Of a DNA stretch of 64,000 nt, positions 5,527 to 13,045 are shown piece by piece (within the stretch, counting starts at the first letter, position 1; each line of letters starts with the position of its first letter). The notes below the pieces were generated by a model, which made no database searches, was not told the DNA's origin, and saw only the letters and a list, made by a program, of their open reading frames with translations. The position numbers and the translations under genes were made by a program. The stretch covers positions 188,001 to 252,000 of the IMG/VR virus record IMGVR_UViG_3300021964_000012, one strand, 5' to 3'. The stretch is from a virus.

Positions 5527-6513
5527 TTAGAAAGAAGCGGCAATTTTAAATTGTAAAACTGAACCATCATCATCTGTTGATGCTTCTCCACCGTTCTTGT
5601 ACTCATAGTCTGTGTAGTTTACATAACCAGTTAAACCTGGTGCAATAGCATGTTTAAGTTCAACCATGTTTTGCTTTAAGTTTTCTTTTTCAGAACCTGA
5701 TACATCTAATGCATCTTCTGATTCCATTGTTGAAACTGCAACAGTTGTAGTGTCATTAATTGCATAACTTGCACCACCGCCTACTGTTTCAATGTCCTCG
5801 TCTGCACCTTCTACAGTACTCATTGCACCAATAAGTGTTACTGCACCAAATGATACTTTAGCACCAATGCTTTGTGACTCATTGTCAATTGCACCTGATA
5901 CTTCTTGCATGCCTTTTGTGTAACCAATTTTGATGTTTTCATGAGTGTAACTTGCACCATATGCAGTTGAATCAGTTGCGCCTGTTGCGCCTGAATCCAT
6001 GTAACTTACACCAGCTTGTATTCCGCCGAAACTTGGAGAAATGTATGATACTTTGTCAAGATCTGCACCATATGTTTTTTCACCTGCATTTGATTGAATT
6101 GAAGCATTGGTGTATGTGCCAGTTACTTCTTCGTCCATGATGTCTTGCTCACCAATACCAAAGTTGTCTGTAACTGCATCGTTACCGCCTAGTATTAGTT
6201 TACCAGCAGCACCTGAAATATAAATTGATGATTCGTCAATGGTTGCATTTGTGTCTGCAACTGTTGCCATTTCAACAACCATACCATAGTTTAGGCCACT
6301 ATCAGTTTTGTTTGAGAAAGTAAATTTAATTTCATTATCTGTGTTGCCCATTGAATCACCTTTTTGTGAAGCAATTTGTGAATCAACATCTTTATAATAA
6401 AATTCGGAACTACCAGAAATAGTAAATTCTGGCTTATTAACTGTGGCTTCTTGTGCCAAAGCAGTTGTACTCAGCAGTGTAGCTATCACTGCCAACGGGG
6501 CTAGTTTTTTCAT
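5527..6513 (-). CDS. outer-membrane porin
   Basis: The 328-residue product has a signal peptide (MKKLAPLAVIATLLSTTALA) and a mature start typical of Gram-negative trimeric porins. Repeated amphipathic strands follow, including SGSSEFYYKD, KFTFSNKTDSGLNYGMVVEM, GKLILGG and FGGIQAGVSYMD. The C terminus is FKIAASF, ending in the phenylalanine needed for BAM recognition. No SLH domain is present, which argues against a cyanobacterial porin. Length and strand pattern match alphaproteobacterial porins, so it was probably taken from a host. It stands alone between a CTAAATA promoter with leader hairpin and a strong terminator. Possible roles are altering nutrient uptake or masking receptors against superinfection. 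Confidence 0.85.
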   Translation of the reverse strand: MKKLAPLAVIATLLSTTALAQEATVNKPEFTISGSSEFYYKDVDSQIASQKGDSMGNTDNEIKFTFSNKTDSGLNYGMVVEMATVADTNATIDESSIYISGAAGKLILGGNDAVTDNFGIGEQDIMDEEVTGTYTNASIQSNAGEKTYGADLDKVSYISPSFGGIQAGVSYMDSGATGATDSTAYGASYTHENIKIGYTKGMQEVSGAIDNESQSIGAKVSFGAVTLIGAMSTVEGADEDIETVGGGASYAINDTTTVAVSTMESEDALDVSGSEKENLKQNMVELKHAIAPGLTGYVNYTDYEYKNGGEASTDDDGSVLQFKIAASF

Positions 6514-7276: not shown

Positions 7277-8071
7277 ATGAAAATACACTTTGATTTAATT
7301 TCTGATCTACATGTAGATACTTGGGATGAAGAATTCACCTGGGAAGGAAAAGCCACCAGCCTGTATGCCGTTGTAGCCGGAGATATCAGCAGAGATAGAT
7401 CCAAGTTACGTCCAGTGCTTGAGGAGATCAGCAAGCACTATCTTATGACCATGTTTGTTGATGGAAACGATGAACATAGATGGACCATGGATAATTTAGC
7501 TGAAAGTTATAAAACACTAAAACAAGAATTAACTGGTATTCCTAATTTTATTTGGCTACAAGATGACTCTTTAGTGATAGATAATATAGGATTTATTGGG
7601 ACCAACGGTTGGACAAGTTTTGATTTTGCAGAGGACAATTCCTATCTTGAAAATAAAAAATGGATGGAACAGACATATAAAATAAGCATGTTTGCTGGAC
7701 AACAAATTGAAGCAATGGCAATGCAAGATGCAGGTTTCTTGGTCAAGACTGTTGAAAGGCTGCAAAGACATCCTGATGTAAAAAAGATTGTTGTGGTATC
7801 TCATTTTGTTCCTAATGTAAATCTAATCAACCATGACACACAATTAGTTAACCAACCAAGTAGACTTAACACAACTGGTAATAGTTTTTTACTGAGATGT
7901 CTTGAAGAAGATCATGAACATAAAATTGATACATGGTGTTTTGGACACTATCACAGTGACGTTGATAGAGTTTTAAACGGTGTAAGGTATGTGAATAATT
8001 GTCGTGGTCGAGGTGGGACTAACTGGTGCAAACCAGTTTATTATCCTAAACGTATTGAAATTGGTTTTTAA
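7277..8071 (+). CDS. calcineurin-like metallophosphoesterase
   Basis: The 264-residue form (from ATG 7277) begins MKIHFDLISDLHVD, the first metal-binding motif (DxH) of calcineurin-like phosphoesterases. Further motifs follow in order: AGDISRD, DGNDEH (GNxEH-like), VVSHFVP and FGHYHSDVD (GHxH). All metal-ligand positions seem present. Family members cleave phosphomono- or diesters, and phage versions may act on nucleotides or nucleic acid. An ATG at 7250 would add nine residues, but it overlaps the divergent gene's ribosome site, so I prefer 7277. The 3' end overlaps clpS by four bases, tail to tail. No clear ribosome site is seen. Confidence 0.8.
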   Translation: MKIHFDLISDLHVDTWDEEFTWEGKATSLYAVVAGDISRDRSKLRPVLEEISKHYLMTMFVDGNDEHRWTMDNLAESYKTLKQELTGIPNFIWLQDDSLVIDNIGFIGTNGWTSFDFAEDNSYLENKKWMEQTYKISMFAGQQIEAMAMQDAGFLVKTVERLQRHPDVKKIVVVSHFVPNVNLINHDTQLVNQPSRLNTTGNSFLLRCLEEDHEHKIDTWCFGHYHSDVDRVLNGVRYVNNCRGRGGTNWCKPVYYPKRIEIGF

Positions 8072-8373
8072 AGATCAGGTTCTAGTTTAACCTGCAAAGG
8101 AAAACCTTTGCTTCTAGCACACACTGTCACTTCTACGCCTTTTTGTTCAGCCATTTCATAAGGAAGTACTGCAACCACTGCACTGCCTTTTTCATGAATG
8201 TCTACAGTAATTTTTTCAGCAGTTGTTGGTGTATAATGAAAAATGTCAACAAGTGTTTCGATAACAAATTCCATTGCAGTTTTATCGTCGTTGACATAGA
8301 TCAACTTGAATAAGTGTGGTTCAGCTAGGGTAGTGCTTATTTCGGTTTTAACACTGGAATCTGGACTTGTCAT
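8068..8373 (-). CDS. clpS: ClpS-like N-end-rule adaptor
   Basis: The 101-residue protein has the ClpS core after a flexible 20-residue N terminus: LIYVNDDKTAMEFV (compare NDDYTPMEFV), a helix, then VDIHEKGSAVVAVLPYEMAE (compare VHNEGRGVCGVYTREVAE) and a C-terminal strand HP/FPLQVKLEPD. N28, D29 and H60, which bind the substrate alpha-amino group, are kept. ClpS delivers proteins with destabilising N-terminal residues to ClpAP and usually works with ClpA, not ClpX. It lies next to hsp20 with a strong hairpin between them. An AGGAAAATAC site supports the start. Confidence 0.85.
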   Translation of the reverse strand: MTSPDSSVKTEISTTLAEPHLFKLIYVNDDKTAMEFVIETLVDIFHYTPTTAEKITVDIHEKGSAVVAVLPYEMAEQKGVEVTVCARSKGFPLQVKLEPDL

Positions 8374-8430: not shown

Positions 8431-8874
8431 TTATTTGATTTCAATAGTTTTTGGCTTGAGGGCATCTGGAATGATTTTTTCTAAATGGATACTTAATACT
8501 CCATTTTTCATTTCTGCACTTTTTACTTCCACATACTCTGCAAGATTAAAAGTTCTTGTAAAGTTACGTCCTGAAAGTCCTCTGTGTAGATATTCAATTC
8601 CGTTTGCTTCATCTTCACCGTCAATCTTCTTAGGTTGGTTACCTGTGATTGTCAGTGTGCCATTTTCCATTTCTATCGTCATGTCTGCTTTTTCAAAACC
8701 AGCGGCCGCAATTTCTATGGTATAATTGTAATCATTCTCTCTGATGATATTATATGGCGGATAGTTCTGTGAACTTGTCATTTCAAAATTTGATGTGATT
8801 CTATCAAATAAAGAATCAAATCCAACAGCGTTACGATAAAAAGGGGTTAAGTCGAGTGAGGTTATTCTTGTCAT
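8431..8874 (-). CDS. Hsp20 / alpha-crystallin small heat-shock protein
   Basis: The 147-residue product has the IbpA-type layout. A short N-terminal arm contains FDSLFDRI, an alpha-crystallin domain covers about residues 37-128 (YTIEIAAAGFEKADMTIEME; LHRGLSGRNFTRTFNL; GVLSIHLEK), and a C-terminal tail follows. Small heat-shock proteins hold unfolding proteins for refolding. They are common in marine T4-like phages and may help virion protein folding. A TATAAATA promoter and a 5' hairpin lie upstream, and AGGAG precedes the start. It is adjacent to clpS. Confidence 0.93.
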   Translation of the reverse strand: MTRITSLDLTPFYRNAVGFDSLFDRITSNFEMTSSQNYPPYNIIRENDYNYTIEIAAAGFEKADMTIEMENGTLTITGNQPKKIDGEDEANGIEYLHRGLSGRNFTRTFNLAEYVEVKSAEMKNGVLSIHLEKIIPDALKPKTIEIK

Positions 8875-9057: not shown

Positions 9058-11418
9058 TTAGAATGTCCAAGTATAATTGATACTTGCATTCTTATCACCG
9101 CTTTGACTTACGGCACCACCTACCTTAATCTTAGTATTAGTATCTAAGTTAAAGTTGTAGTTTGCTTTCAAGTAACCATTTATGTTTGTTGGTAACTTGA
9201 ATTTGTGTTCAGTGTAGTTAAGGTTGCCTGTTGAATCAACACTAGTAGGCACATTAGCAGTAACATCACCGTTTAGTAACACAGGATGTACACCAGCACC
9301 TAAGTCTAAGTTGCCTTGCTTGTATCCAAGCTCCCCCCATATACCAAATTGATCACTAACTTTTGTTATTAAACCTTTTTGGAAGTTTGTTTTAACATGC
9401 ATGGCACTTGCTCTTGCAGTAAAGCTACCTTTCTTGTATGTAACAACATTGTCAACAATGTTAGTGTTATCAACTTCACCCCATATGCCTGAGAAACCAA
9501 TCCATGGATTGCTATTCAACTTTGACAGATGCACACTGTAAGTTGTTCCATTGCCAGTTACTGCATTAGCATTGGTCCACATGTTTTGTCCTAGTGTGAA
9601 CTGTTGTGTTTTTGTATCGGCGCCAGCAATAACACCATTTTCAGTTGTAGTATTAAAACTAGAGATACTGTTGAACATTGTTGCACCATCAGAATCAATA
9701 TTTGTTTGTGCAAGGTTAACTGCATAGTTTCTTCCTATGCCGTCAAGTGCTTGACCAGTAACATCACCAATGTCAAATCCGTATACACTACCATTAAGTT
9801 TTAAACCGTTCATGGTAAGTGTGCCAATTGGTTGGAATGCTTTGTTGATATCAATTATTGTACCACCAGCAAATGATTGACCTGTATCAGTAAGTGCTTG
9901 AGCAGCTTGTGCATCACTTAGGTAACTCCAAGAATTTTGTATCATATTGATCGCAGTTCCTGCGGCTATTGTAGTTCCATCTAGCCTACTCATAAAAAAC
10001 GTAAGTTTATTATCATTACTGTCTCCGCCACCGGCACTGTTTGCCCATGTTACAAGATACTTGTAACCATCATCTGCTTGAAAAATGTTTACAGTACTAC
10101 CATTTATATCAGTCAAACCATTGGAAGTAGCAATTGATCTAACATCTGTCATAAAGTTAGTGAGTATGTTTTGATAAGCCGCAACGTATTTGTTATCAGA
10201 TGTTTTTAACAAAAACTGGTGACTGTTGTGTGGATTGTTCATAGTACTTGAATCACCACCACTGACCAATATGTCTGTTTTACCATCACCGTTAATATCA
10301 AAGAACCTTGGTTTATATGTACTTGAAGTATTGTTTTGATAACCAATTAGTGTAGAGCTTGTTGTATCAGTAAACACTCCACTACCGTTGTTTTGCATAA
10401 ACTGTATTTCGCTTAATTTGTCATCACCATTGTTTACTTTTTTGCTGAATACAATAACGTCTGCATATCCATCTTCATTAAAGTCGTGGTTGGCAATTTC
10501 AACACTATGATCTATACCGCTGGTACTAAATGCTGGAAGGTCTCTTTCATGTGTAAATTTAAGTACACCGCCTGTCCAGTCAACACTGTACATTTTAGTT
10601 GTGTTACTATCACTGCAAGTGCCGCTTACTACTGCACACTGAGCATCAGTAAGTATTACCTCATTGTTGTTACCGTTGTTCATAAAATTGCCTATTGCAA
10701 CTGCTGAACCACCGTATCTGAGATCACCTGTATTGCCTAATGCATCAACGTGTGTGGTAAATCCATTCACTTGGTTGTTGAGTGCAATAGTTGTATTTTT
10801 ATTTTTTAGATCCGGCATGATAATATCAATATAACCATCATTGTTCAAGTCACCAACATCACTACCATGTGACCAAACGTCTAAGGTTGGAATACTAACT
10901 TTGGTAAAGTTTGATCCATTATTAGTAAAGAAGGTAGCAGGACCAAAGTGTCTCATATCAGTACTGTGCGAAACAAACATATCTTTTCTGCCAGTTTTAA
11001 AGAAGTCAGCAAAATGAACATTAGGCTCTGTGCCCATTATTTCATTGTCGGTACCTGAAAACCACTGTGCAGTCTTATCAACCAATGAACCATTTTCAAA
11101 AGACAGCATGCTTAGTTTAGTGTTGCTCCATGTACCAGCTGTAGCAGGTTGTGTCTTCCTACCAGCAACTATAAAATCATCTGCATAACCATCACCATCA
11201 ATATCTTCTACAAATGTGTCACCAACGAACCATGCATTATCGTTACCACCTGCCATTGGATCAACTGTTACTTGTTGAACTGGCGGGGTATAATATAAGA
11301 CTGGACTTGGAGGATTTGGTGTGTAACCACCTCCGCCACCACCACCACCTCCGCCACAAGCGGAAAGAGCAGTTGCACCTAGTAGTGCGGCCACTATTCG
11401 AGTGTTTTGTTTTATCAT
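9058..11418 (-). CDS. large surface lipoprotein with FG-GAP/VCBS repeats and C-terminal barrel-like domain
   Basis: The 786-residue protein has a lipoprotein signal with lipobox LSAC (lipidated Cys21) and then ten glycines and a Pro-rich linker. From about residue 60 to 420 there are repeated D-x-[ND]-x-DG-x-x-D calcium-binding motifs (DIDGDGYADD, DLNNDGYIDI, DFNEDGYADV, DINGDGKTDI), the hallmark of FG-GAP/VCBS beta-propellers. The last 170 residues contain alternating strands with IWGELGYK and end in INYTWTF, like C-terminal barrels of alphaproteobacterial autotransporters. It has its own promoter and terminator. An outer-membrane, surface-exposed role is likely. A virion adhesin is the alternative, but the lipobox argues against it. 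Confidence 0.75.
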   Translation of the reverse strand: MIKQNTRIVAALLGATALSACGGGGGGGGGGYTPNPPSPVLYYTPPVQQVTVDPMAGGNDNAWFVGDTFVEDIDGDGYADDFIVAGRKTQPATAGTWSNTKLSMLSFENGSLVDKTAQWFSGTDNEIMGTEPNVHFADFFKTGRKDMFVSHSTDMRHFGPATFFTNNGSNFTKVSIPTLDVWSHGSDVGDLNNDGYIDIIMPDLKNKNTTIALNNQVNGFTTHVDALGNTGDLRYGGSAVAIGNFMNNGNNNEVILTDAQCAVVSGTCSDSNTTKMYSVDWTGGVLKFTHERDLPAFSTSGIDHSVEIANHDFNEDGYADVIVFSKKVNNGDDKLSEIQFMQNNGSGVFTDTTSSTLIGYQNNTSSTYKPRFFDINGDGKTDILVSGGDSSTMNNPHNSHQFLLKTSDNKYVAAYQNILTNFMTDVRSIATSNGLTDINGSTVNIFQADDGYKYLVTWANSAGGGDSNDNKLTFFMSRLDGTTIAAGTAINMIQNSWSYLSDAQAAQALTDTGQSFAGGTIIDINKAFQPIGTLTMNGLKLNGSVYGFDIGDVTGQALDGIGRNYAVNLAQTNIDSDGATMFNSISSFNTTTENGVIAGADTKTQQFTLGQNMWTNANAVTGNGTTYSVHLSKLNSNPWIGFSGIWGEVDNTNIVDNVVTYKKGSFTARASAMHVKTNFQKGLITKVSDQFGIWGELGYKQGNLDLGAGVHPVLLNGDVTANVPTSVDSTGNLNYTEHKFKLPTNINGYLKANYNFNLDTNTKIKVGGAVSQSGDKNASINYTWTF

Positions 11419-11506: not shown

Positions 11507-11513
11507 CTAAATA
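11507..11513 (+). promoter_or_regulatory. late-type promoter CTAAATA of the riboswitch gene
   Basis: CTAAATA on the plus strand. Counting six bases on gives 11519, one base before the riboswitch aptamer, which supports this motif as a true promoter. Confidence 0.6.
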
Positions 11514-11518
11514 CATAT

Positions 11519-11588
11519 ACGTTCACCCAAGAGGGCGGAAGTAGGCAATCGCTGAAGGAACGCACTTAACCTTAAAAGGGAGAGTGTA
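11519..11588 (+). promoter_or_regulatory. glutamine riboswitch (Downstream-peptide / glnA RNA type)
   Basis: The leader matches the conserved core of the glutamine-binding glnA/Downstream-peptide RNAs. P1 is CGTTC (11520-11524) paired with GAACG (11558-11562). A CCC/GGG hairpin follows P1, then the invariant CGGAAGTAGG (11536-11545) and GAAGGAACGC (11554-11563). The ribosome site GGGAGAG and the start of a short gene lie about 20 bases downstream, as in the Downstream-peptide class. These riboswitches are known from cyanobacteria, their phages and marine metagenomes. Glutamine should change access to the ribosome site. The match was made from memory. Confidence 0.85.
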
Positions 11589-11834
11589 ATGACAAACATA
11601 ATCGAAACTAAATTTGGTACCTTGGTTAATACAAAAAAGGTAGCCGCAGGAAGTGCATCTAGTATAAAAAAATCTGGTGCGTTTTATAGTTTTTCAATAA
11701 AAATAGCAAATGATGATATAAGAGAATACTCATTTACGGATCTTGCAAGAGCTCAGTATATGAGAACAATTATGATTGGTCATTTAGAAGAAAAAATTAA
11801 AAACGAAACTAAGAGTATTTCTAAAACTGCCTAG
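11589..11834 (+). CDS. small protein controlled by a glutamine riboswitch
   Basis: This 81-residue protein (start ATG after GGGAGAGTGTA) has a Ser/Lys-rich N-terminal half with beta character and a helical, charged C terminus. It has no signal peptide and no family I recognise. The glutamine riboswitch in its leader implies a link to nitrogen status. Host genes with this leader often encode small inhibitors of glutamine synthetase, but no such similarity is visible here. It is one of few plus-strand genes, and its last four bases overlap clpX tail to tail. Confidence 0.75.
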   Translation: MTNIIETKFGTLVNTKKVAAGSASSIKKSGAFYSFSIKIANDDIREYSFTDLARAQYMRTIMIGHLEEKIKNETKSISKTA

Positions 11835-13045
11835 GCTGCTAATTTTAGTGGTTTCTTAACGAGGCCTGGAGTTATAACTACTTCGGTAATATCCTGTTTA
11901 GCATATTCTTTTAGGCTAAACATATGCGGCATCAATATACGTTCAAGCTCGGCTTGCAAACTTCTTGCTCCAGTTTTACGTGTTGCCGCATTTTTTGCGA
12001 TTTCAAGCAGTGCTTCATCGCTAAATTTTAATTTTACACCATCACATTCAAACAGATAGGTATATTGATCAATTAAACTGTTTTTAATTCCAGTAAGCAC
12101 ATATACCAACTGTTTTTCTGAAAGTTCTTTCAAACCTACCCATGTTGGAAAACGTCCTACAAATTCGGGAATCATACCAAACTTTACCAAATCATCTGGC
12201 TCCATATTATCAAGTTCACCTTCTGCATTTGTTTTAACATCAACACCAAAACCTATTCCAGAACCTTCAGCACGTCTTTTGATAACATCATTAATACCAA
12301 CAAAGGCGCCACCAGCAATAAAAAGTATATTTGTTGTATCAATATCTATCATTTCAGCCTGTGGATTTTTCCGACTAGCATTTTGTGCAGGAACTCTACA
12401 AACAGTTCCTTCTACCACTTTCAACAATGCTTGTTGAACGCCTTCTCCACTTACATCACGTGTAATGCTTGTGTTTTCACTTTTGCGAGCGATTTTATCA
12501 ATCTCGTCTAAAAATATTATACCTCTTTGGCATTTTTCAACATTACCACCAGCATTGCTTAATAATTTTCCAATCAGTGACTCAACATCATCACCTACAT
12601 AACCAGCTTCAGTAATACTTGTTGCATCAGTGACTGCAAACGGCACATCTAGATACCTTGCTACTGACTTTGCTAATAGTGTTTTACCACAACCAGTTGG
12701 ACCAAGGAGCAGAACGTTTGCTTTATCTAGTTCTAGATCTTTTGATTTGTTTTGTATTCTTTTGTAATGGTTTGCCACTGCAACACTTAGAACTGTTTTA
12801 GCGGATTCTTGTCCTATTACATATTTGTCTAAAAATGCTTTTAATTCGGTTGGATCAATGTCTTTGAATTTTACTGAATCAACTGTTTCTTTTGTAAGAG
12901 ATTTTAGTAAGTCGCCACATAGGTCTACACATTCGTTACAAATAGCAACTCTATCACCTACAATAAGTTTATTAACTTTATCTTTTTCTTTATTGCAAAA
13001 ATCACATCGATTGTATTGTTGTTTTTGTTCTTCGTCCATGGTCAT
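11831..13045 (-). CDS. clpX: ClpX unfoldase, full length
   Basis: The 404-residue product has all ClpX domains: an N-terminal zinc-binding domain (C14, C17, C36, C39), Walker A GPTGCGKT (115-122), pore loop GYVGDD (148-153), Walker B IIFLDE (176-181) and the SITRDVSGEGVQQALLKVVEGT region. The ClpP-docking IGF loop is present (264-266), and a GAR sensor-2 arginine lies near residue 348. ClpX unfolds tagged proteins and feeds them to ClpP. No clpP is in the window, so the host ClpP would be the partner. The RKH loop reads RKN at 225-227. The ATG overlaps the previous gene's TAA. Confidence 0.95.
   Translation of the reverse strand: MTMDEEQKQQYNRCDFCNKEKDKVNKLIVGDRVAICNECVDLCGDLLKSLTKETVDSVKFKDIDPTELKAFLDKYVIGQESAKTVLSVAVANHYKRIQNKSKDLELDKANVLLLGPTGCGKTLLAKSVARYLDVPFAVTDATSITEAGYVGDDVESLIGKLLSNAGGNVEKCQRGIIFLDEIDKIARKSENTSITRDVSGEGVQQALLKVVEGTVCRVPAQNASRKNPQAEMIDIDTTNILFIAGGAFVGINDVIKRRAEGSGIGFGVDVKTNAEGELDNMEPDDLVKFGMIPEFVGRFPTWVGLKELSEKQLVYVLTGIKNSLIDQYTYLFECDGVKLKFSDEALLEIAKNAATRKTGARSLQAELERILMPHMFSLKEYAKQDITEVVITPGLVKKPLKLAA

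Follow-up and report, generated by a model that had tools for sequence, protein, structure and literature searches.

The window, by which we mean the whole 64-kb stretch of viral DNA analysed here, holds a compact unit in which a phage late-type promoter motif, a riboswitch aptamer and one small open reading frame (ORF) follow one another on the same strand. The features discussed below, which include a porin gene elsewhere in the window, are as follows.

5527-6513, minus strand: outer-membrane porin gene of the phage, its product most similar to porins of SAR116 (44% identity)
11507-11513, plus strand: CTAAATA, a T4-like late-promoter motif, read from the sequence
11518-11566, plus strand: glutamine riboswitch aptamer (RF01739), located by covariance model
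11520-11524, plus strand: 5′ strand of P1, CGUUC, paired with GAACG at 11558-11562 in the covariance alignment
about 11546-11566, plus strand: likely cargo exchange junction interval, placed by a shift in similarity between relatives
11562-11587, plus strand: proposed expression platform hairpin, from the MFE fold and covariation
11577-11582, plus strand: Shine-Dalgarno-like AGGGAG, read from the sequence, 6 nt upstream of the start codon
11589-11834, plus strand: 81-aa ORF, a homologue of a SAR116 small protein, from the ORF and homology

A proteostasis cluster surrounds this unit, with genes for ClpS-like (8068-8373), Hsp20-like (8431-8874) and ClpX-like (11831-13045, minus strand) proteins; the same three-part cluster is also found in the relatives L220 and L221.

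The riboswitch and its promoter motif

What kind of RNA is the leader of this small gene? When the window was searched with all Rfam covariance models, RF01739, the glnA RNA, gave the sole above-threshold match (53.7 bits, E 5.5e-9; gathering score, 35). The alignment is full-length, spanning model positions 1-53 of 53, and contains the three-stem junction of P1, P2 and P3 together with the conserved core blocks CGGAAGUA and GAAGGAACGCA. Because the match stands at 53.7 bits against a cut-off of 35 and covers the full model, we regard the riboswitch as real and not as a chance observation. The glutamine riboswitch that an earlier sequence-only reading had placed here is thus confirmed as a member of this class, from which we infer that it binds glutamine, and the P1 stem and invariant core blocks described in that reading are both seen in the alignment. 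The aptamer is the single RF01739 match in the 328,292-base virus record, and the start codon lies 22 nt downstream of its end, as befits a 5′ leader. In the related locus L006, P1 reads CGUUG/CAACG, which represents a compensatory change on both strands of the stem. The window therefore resembles the known glnA RNA in its full-length match, three stems, core blocks and leader position; it differs in having a phage late-type promoter and SAR116 cargo, and in that the aptamer of its relatives precedes unrelated cargo. The idea that the hit is fortuitous, or a look-alike without function, can practically be dismissed, since the assignment, although made from sequence and structure, is backed by this score and E-value and by the recurrence of the same arrangement in six viral contigs and of the leader with other cargo in four more, so that this alternative is already refuted at that level.

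The sequence-only reading had also linked the leader to the Downstream-peptide RNA (RF01704), a sister class whose position ahead of short ORFs (17-100 aa) has been known since 2010 (PMC2864571). The short ORF downstream is a point of likeness, but the RF01704 model gave no match between positions 11400 and 11900 even at E ≤ 10; this link fails, and the class was ruled out as an alternative.

The CTAAATA motif at 11507 is TATAAATA-like and oriented towards the gene, as in a T4-like late promoter, and four bases separate it from the aptamer match. TAAATA-type motifs upstream of genes in the window occur 18 times in the sense orientation versus 6 times in the wrong one, as expected of T4-like late promoters. 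At the same position, relatives carry TATAAATA (L006), ATAAATA (L002-L004) or a degenerate motif (L005). A late-type motif directly ahead of the aptamer agrees with the earlier proposal that transcription starts at the aptamer, the start site itself being predicted. Judged from the motif alone, the unit would be expressed late, and it is plausible that glutamine is sensed late in infection.

Proposed expression platform and probable direction of control

How might the aptamer control the gene? Behind it, GCACUU (11562-11567) can pair with GAGUGU (11582-11587), and CCU (11570-11572) with AGG (11577-11579), forming a hairpin that covers the ribosome site and reuses aptamer bases, namely G11562 at the 3′ end of P1 and the conserved CA that follows it. 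The MFE fold of 11555-11600 reaches -10.7 kcal/mol (z -3.36), and none of 200 shuffles was as good. A CA-anchored stem of at least four pairs is present in 69 of the 88 distinct leaders (viral and window) and absent in the other 19. Where such a stem was found, pair four is C-G (54), U-G (8), U-A (6) or A-U (1), and pair five is C-G (42), U-A (23) or U-G (3), one leader being mismatched there. Both tallies cover only leaders in which a stem was found, and kinship among the sequences inflates the covariation that these tallies indicate. The observed pairing score of 12.16 compares with 10.52 ± 0.19 (maximum 11.0 in 200 swaps) when 5′ and 3′ parts were swapped between leaders. A terminator-type platform was rejected, as no transcription terminator was found in the leader.

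Because viral leaders keep the platform stem by paired changes, we argue that the leader would act as a translational ON switch. RNA polymerase would start at CTAAATA, so that the transcript begins near P1. Without glutamine, the 3′ tail of the aptamer, GCACUU, would pair with the GAGUGU next to the start codon, hiding the ribosome site; with glutamine, P1 would close and claim the tail bases, and translation would rise. The motif, the structure and the covariation are observed, and the start site and the ON direction are deduced from them.

Could glutamine instead reduce translation, so that the 81-aa protein is made under glutamine shortage? When P1 was forced in the RNA model, the ribosome site remained covered by a shorter version of the hairpin (-15.6 versus -20.4 kcal/mol when free); energy alone therefore does not show a glutamine-driven opening, and the persistence of such a hairpin would suit an OFF switch. 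Against this, the full hairpin takes G11562 and the conserved CA from the aptamer, and because these bases are shared, the two structures compete, and the aptamer does not help the hairpin to form. Two analogous systems also suit activation by glutamine. First, in a SAR116-family genome (L201:1-1559), a single glutamine riboswitch (55.8 bits) lies directly before a glutamate synthase-like gene. Second, synthesis of the cyanobacterial protein IF17 is stimulated by high glutamine (PMC7760959); the gifB/IF17 riboswitch, like that of the window, precedes a small-protein gene, and it differs in its product, IF17 being a 149-aa glutamine synthetase inhibitor and the window cargo an 81-aa protein for which the analysis turned up no link to glutamine synthetase or PII. 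Both examples fit the ON direction, and we consider an OFF switch unlikely.

The 81-residue protein and the probable host

The one small ORF that the sequence-only reading had noted behind the riboswitch encodes 81 residues, and the protein has 47 relatives in IMG/VR. In L001-L006, the homologue is accompanied by the riboswitch, which RF01739 confirmed for L002-L006 (42.9-62.1 bits). In L007-L047, the protein is about 78 aa long and its gene comes straight after another one, with no riboswitch pattern nearby. In the loci read in detail, the gene before this form encodes an SU10-type adaptor, the setting is a structural operon, and the next gene is overlapped.

Outside viruses, we found homologues at 26 loci in bacterial genomes, most of which are titled SAR116, and the 81-aa protein is 77-87% identical to the SAR116 cellular copies over 68-80 residues. 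A homologue occurs in 38 of the 58 genomes in the family of one SAR116 genome; across the class, only 3 of 385 genomes contain one at strong E-values, two of these remote. No riboswitch was detected at the host copies, either by pattern or, in the loci tested, by covariance model. Comparison with the other riboswitch phages gives the ORF a dN/dS ratio of 0.06-0.32, and comparison with the host copies one of 0.04-0.05, values from which the ORF is judged to be under purifying selection. By this homology, the product is a conserved SAR116 cellular protein and is not phage-specific. It had been described as an unrecognised phage protein, and the first part of this description stands, in that no known family was matched: searches of Pfam (E ≤ 10), NCBIfam, INPHARED and PDB sequences returned nothing significant, and the best PHROGs match had an E-value of 0.077. 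A YRG-motif protein (DUF4278, PF14105) was rejected, there being no Pfam family at E ≤ 10. AlphaFold models of middling confidence (pLDDT 72.2 and 74.4) combine short strands with a long C-terminal helix. A Foldseek comparison with PDB and BFVD gave no match at E ≤ 0.001; the highest-scoring VIA-align candidate, a methane monooxygenase inhibitory subunit (Z 5.5), was not above background and was discarded.

In a tree of the protein family (225 columns, midpoint root), the seven copies from riboswitch phages group together (98/89), next to L170 and L171 from hosts (94/89); a separate clade (98/91) holds the copies from adaptor operons. The tree supports capture of the gene by phage from SAR116, with the host-to-phage direction depending on the midpoint root and the 225 columns. 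With the same root, the simplest reading is that two captures from SAR116 took place, giving rise to the riboswitch and adaptor-operon forms. Like other phage auxiliary genes, the 81-aa gene has a close homologue in the presumed host and nests beside host copies; it differs from them in standing under a metabolite switch that the host copies lack.

We also considered that the protein might be a component of the virion or of its assembly. In other phages, the 78-aa form comes directly 3′ of an SU10-adaptor gene and overlaps the gene after it, and the adaptor-operon and riboswitch settings both imply late expression. Nevertheless, the gene is chromosomal in 38 of the 58 SAR116-family genomes, and phage structural genes are absent around the two host copies examined; a virion role is thus improbable, and we prefer to regard the product as a host-derived cellular protein.

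Similarities of the 81-aa protein, the porin and a UvsW-like helicase together point to SAR116 as the likely host. The porin scores 195 bits in SAR116 versus at most 49.5 bits in the other alphaproteobacteria sampled, and the nearest isolates for the helicase are Sinorhizobium and Agrobacterium jumbo phages (54% and 50%). On these grounds, the virus, a giant marine T4-like phage, probably infects SAR116 alphaproteobacteria, which supports the earlier view that the likely host is not a cyanobacterium. Because the 328-kb phage record contains no glutamine synthetase gene, it is more likely that the switch senses glutamine of the host and adjusts how much of a phage-supplied small protein is made than that it controls a phage pathway.

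Exchange of cargo behind the aptamer

How did a host protein come to lie behind this aptamer? Phage relatives for a comparison of cargo were found by way of the clpX gene. In four of them (L219, L220, L221 and L227), clpX is 85-89% identical and the riboswitch adjoins clpX as in the window (51.3-54.7 bits). Their aptamers are 92-94% identical to that of the window, and the promoter region is up to 96% identical (L220; 56% in L219). The similarity of the cargo region is no better than that of shuffled sequence, and the cargo is an unrelated MTYRPYQWKKF-type peptide of 34-37 aa. Conversely, L002 and L003 match the window closely in the cargo region (93-99%) and have dissimilar promoter flanks (56%), and the leader tail of the window is identical to that of L003. 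In other words, the promoter and 5′ aptamer of the window are closest to L219-L221 and L227, the tail and everything beyond belong to L003-type cassettes, and the portion between is common to both. Because the promoter side matches the L219 type and the tail matches the L003 type, the junction most likely lies in the 3′ aptamer (about 11546-11566). These comparisons suggest that the SAR116 protein probably replaced the peptide of 34-37 residues by recombination in the conserved aptamer. A second swap locus is provided by L005 and L086, which share neighbouring genes and the riboswitch, with a SAR116-type protein in one and a 49-aa peptide in the other.

The replaced peptide itself has a counterpart in SAR116. 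RF01739 matches occur in 6 of 58 SAR116-family genomes, and in L196 and L198-L200 tandem glutamine aptamers lie ahead of a 38-aa peptide (MTYIPYQWKKF... or MTYRQYQWKQC...) of the same family as the MTYRPYQWKKF-type phage peptide and the peptides behind viral glutamine riboswitches. Phage lineages with a common promoter and aptamer therefore differ in cargo, and both cargos have SAR116 cellular counterparts.

The leader might instead be a relic whose aptamer was kept by descent or as a patch of homology for recombination, the protein being made late without glutamine control. The copies in structural operons of other tailed phages have no riboswitch, and glutamine control is therefore dispensable for phage use of the protein. 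However, the leader retains all core blocks and has a compensatory change in P1 in L006, and the platform stem differs on both sides between cargo types (CACC/GGUG to CACU/AGUG), that is, it was preserved by paired change when the cargo changed. We thus give the relic little credence and favour a working switch.

Taken together, we think it quite probable that the window contains a late one-gene ON unit of a T4-like giant SAR116 phage, in which a host protein has been swapped into a glutamine-gated slot. The product would be a captured SAR116 protein, with the direction of capture read from the tree, standing in place of an unrelated peptide of 34-37 residues, and the unit would form a slot for interchangeable small proteins gated by glutamine. 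Our best guess is that, under plentiful glutamine, the product would add to or modulate its host counterpart. Whether this extends more widely is, in our judgement, an evenly balanced question: the aptamer of marine phages that infect SAR116, and probably other streamlined bacteria too, may be a plug-in slot at which recombination within the aptamer swaps host-acting peptides under a glutamine-gated late promoter. If this were true, the unit in the window would represent the exchange of a host-type riboswitch peptide for another host protein.

Glutamine riboswitches have been published for cyanophages and for phages of OM43 and SAR11 (PMC9964418, PMC9004378), and their position upstream of small proteins in phages is already known. 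Two other T4-like phages from the sea, Methylophilales phage Melnitz and Pelagibacter phage Mosig, likewise infect streamlined heterotrophs and carry a glutamine riboswitch (PMC9004378). The Melnitz riboswitch occurs with a two-piece tmRNA and a transcription coactivator gene, whereas that of the window precedes one small host-derived protein. We found no report of a SAR116 setting or of cargo exchange for glutamine riboswitches in the literature searched, which included few subscription journals, and the SAR116 cargo and its swapping appear to be new. Phage riboswitches are known and their targets are mostly unstudied. Because both cargos have SAR116 counterparts, the role and interchangeability of high-glutamine small proteins in the infected cell are directly testable. 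The unit further connects a giant phage with a lineage that is abundant in the ocean, and it suggests that a regulatory RNA may act as a recombination joint.

A pattern scan of IMG/VR for such aptamers yielded at least 120 stretches. The first ORFs behind them are small, with a median of 42 aa over the 112 loci listed, and belong to several unrelated families, one of which is near DUF4278 with a score below its cut-off. Tandem aptamers, which are known for this class (PMC2864571), account for 10 of 120 among the matches listed, including L059, L063, L075, L094 and L127. The viral glutamine riboswitch of L089 and L147 precedes a different protein of 78 aa, whose start codon is GTG. Finally, a 99-aa reading frame lies between the riboswitch unit and a lipoprotein gene in L221 (L221:6394-6693); this stretch is absent from the window, and similar DNA is also present in L219 and L220.
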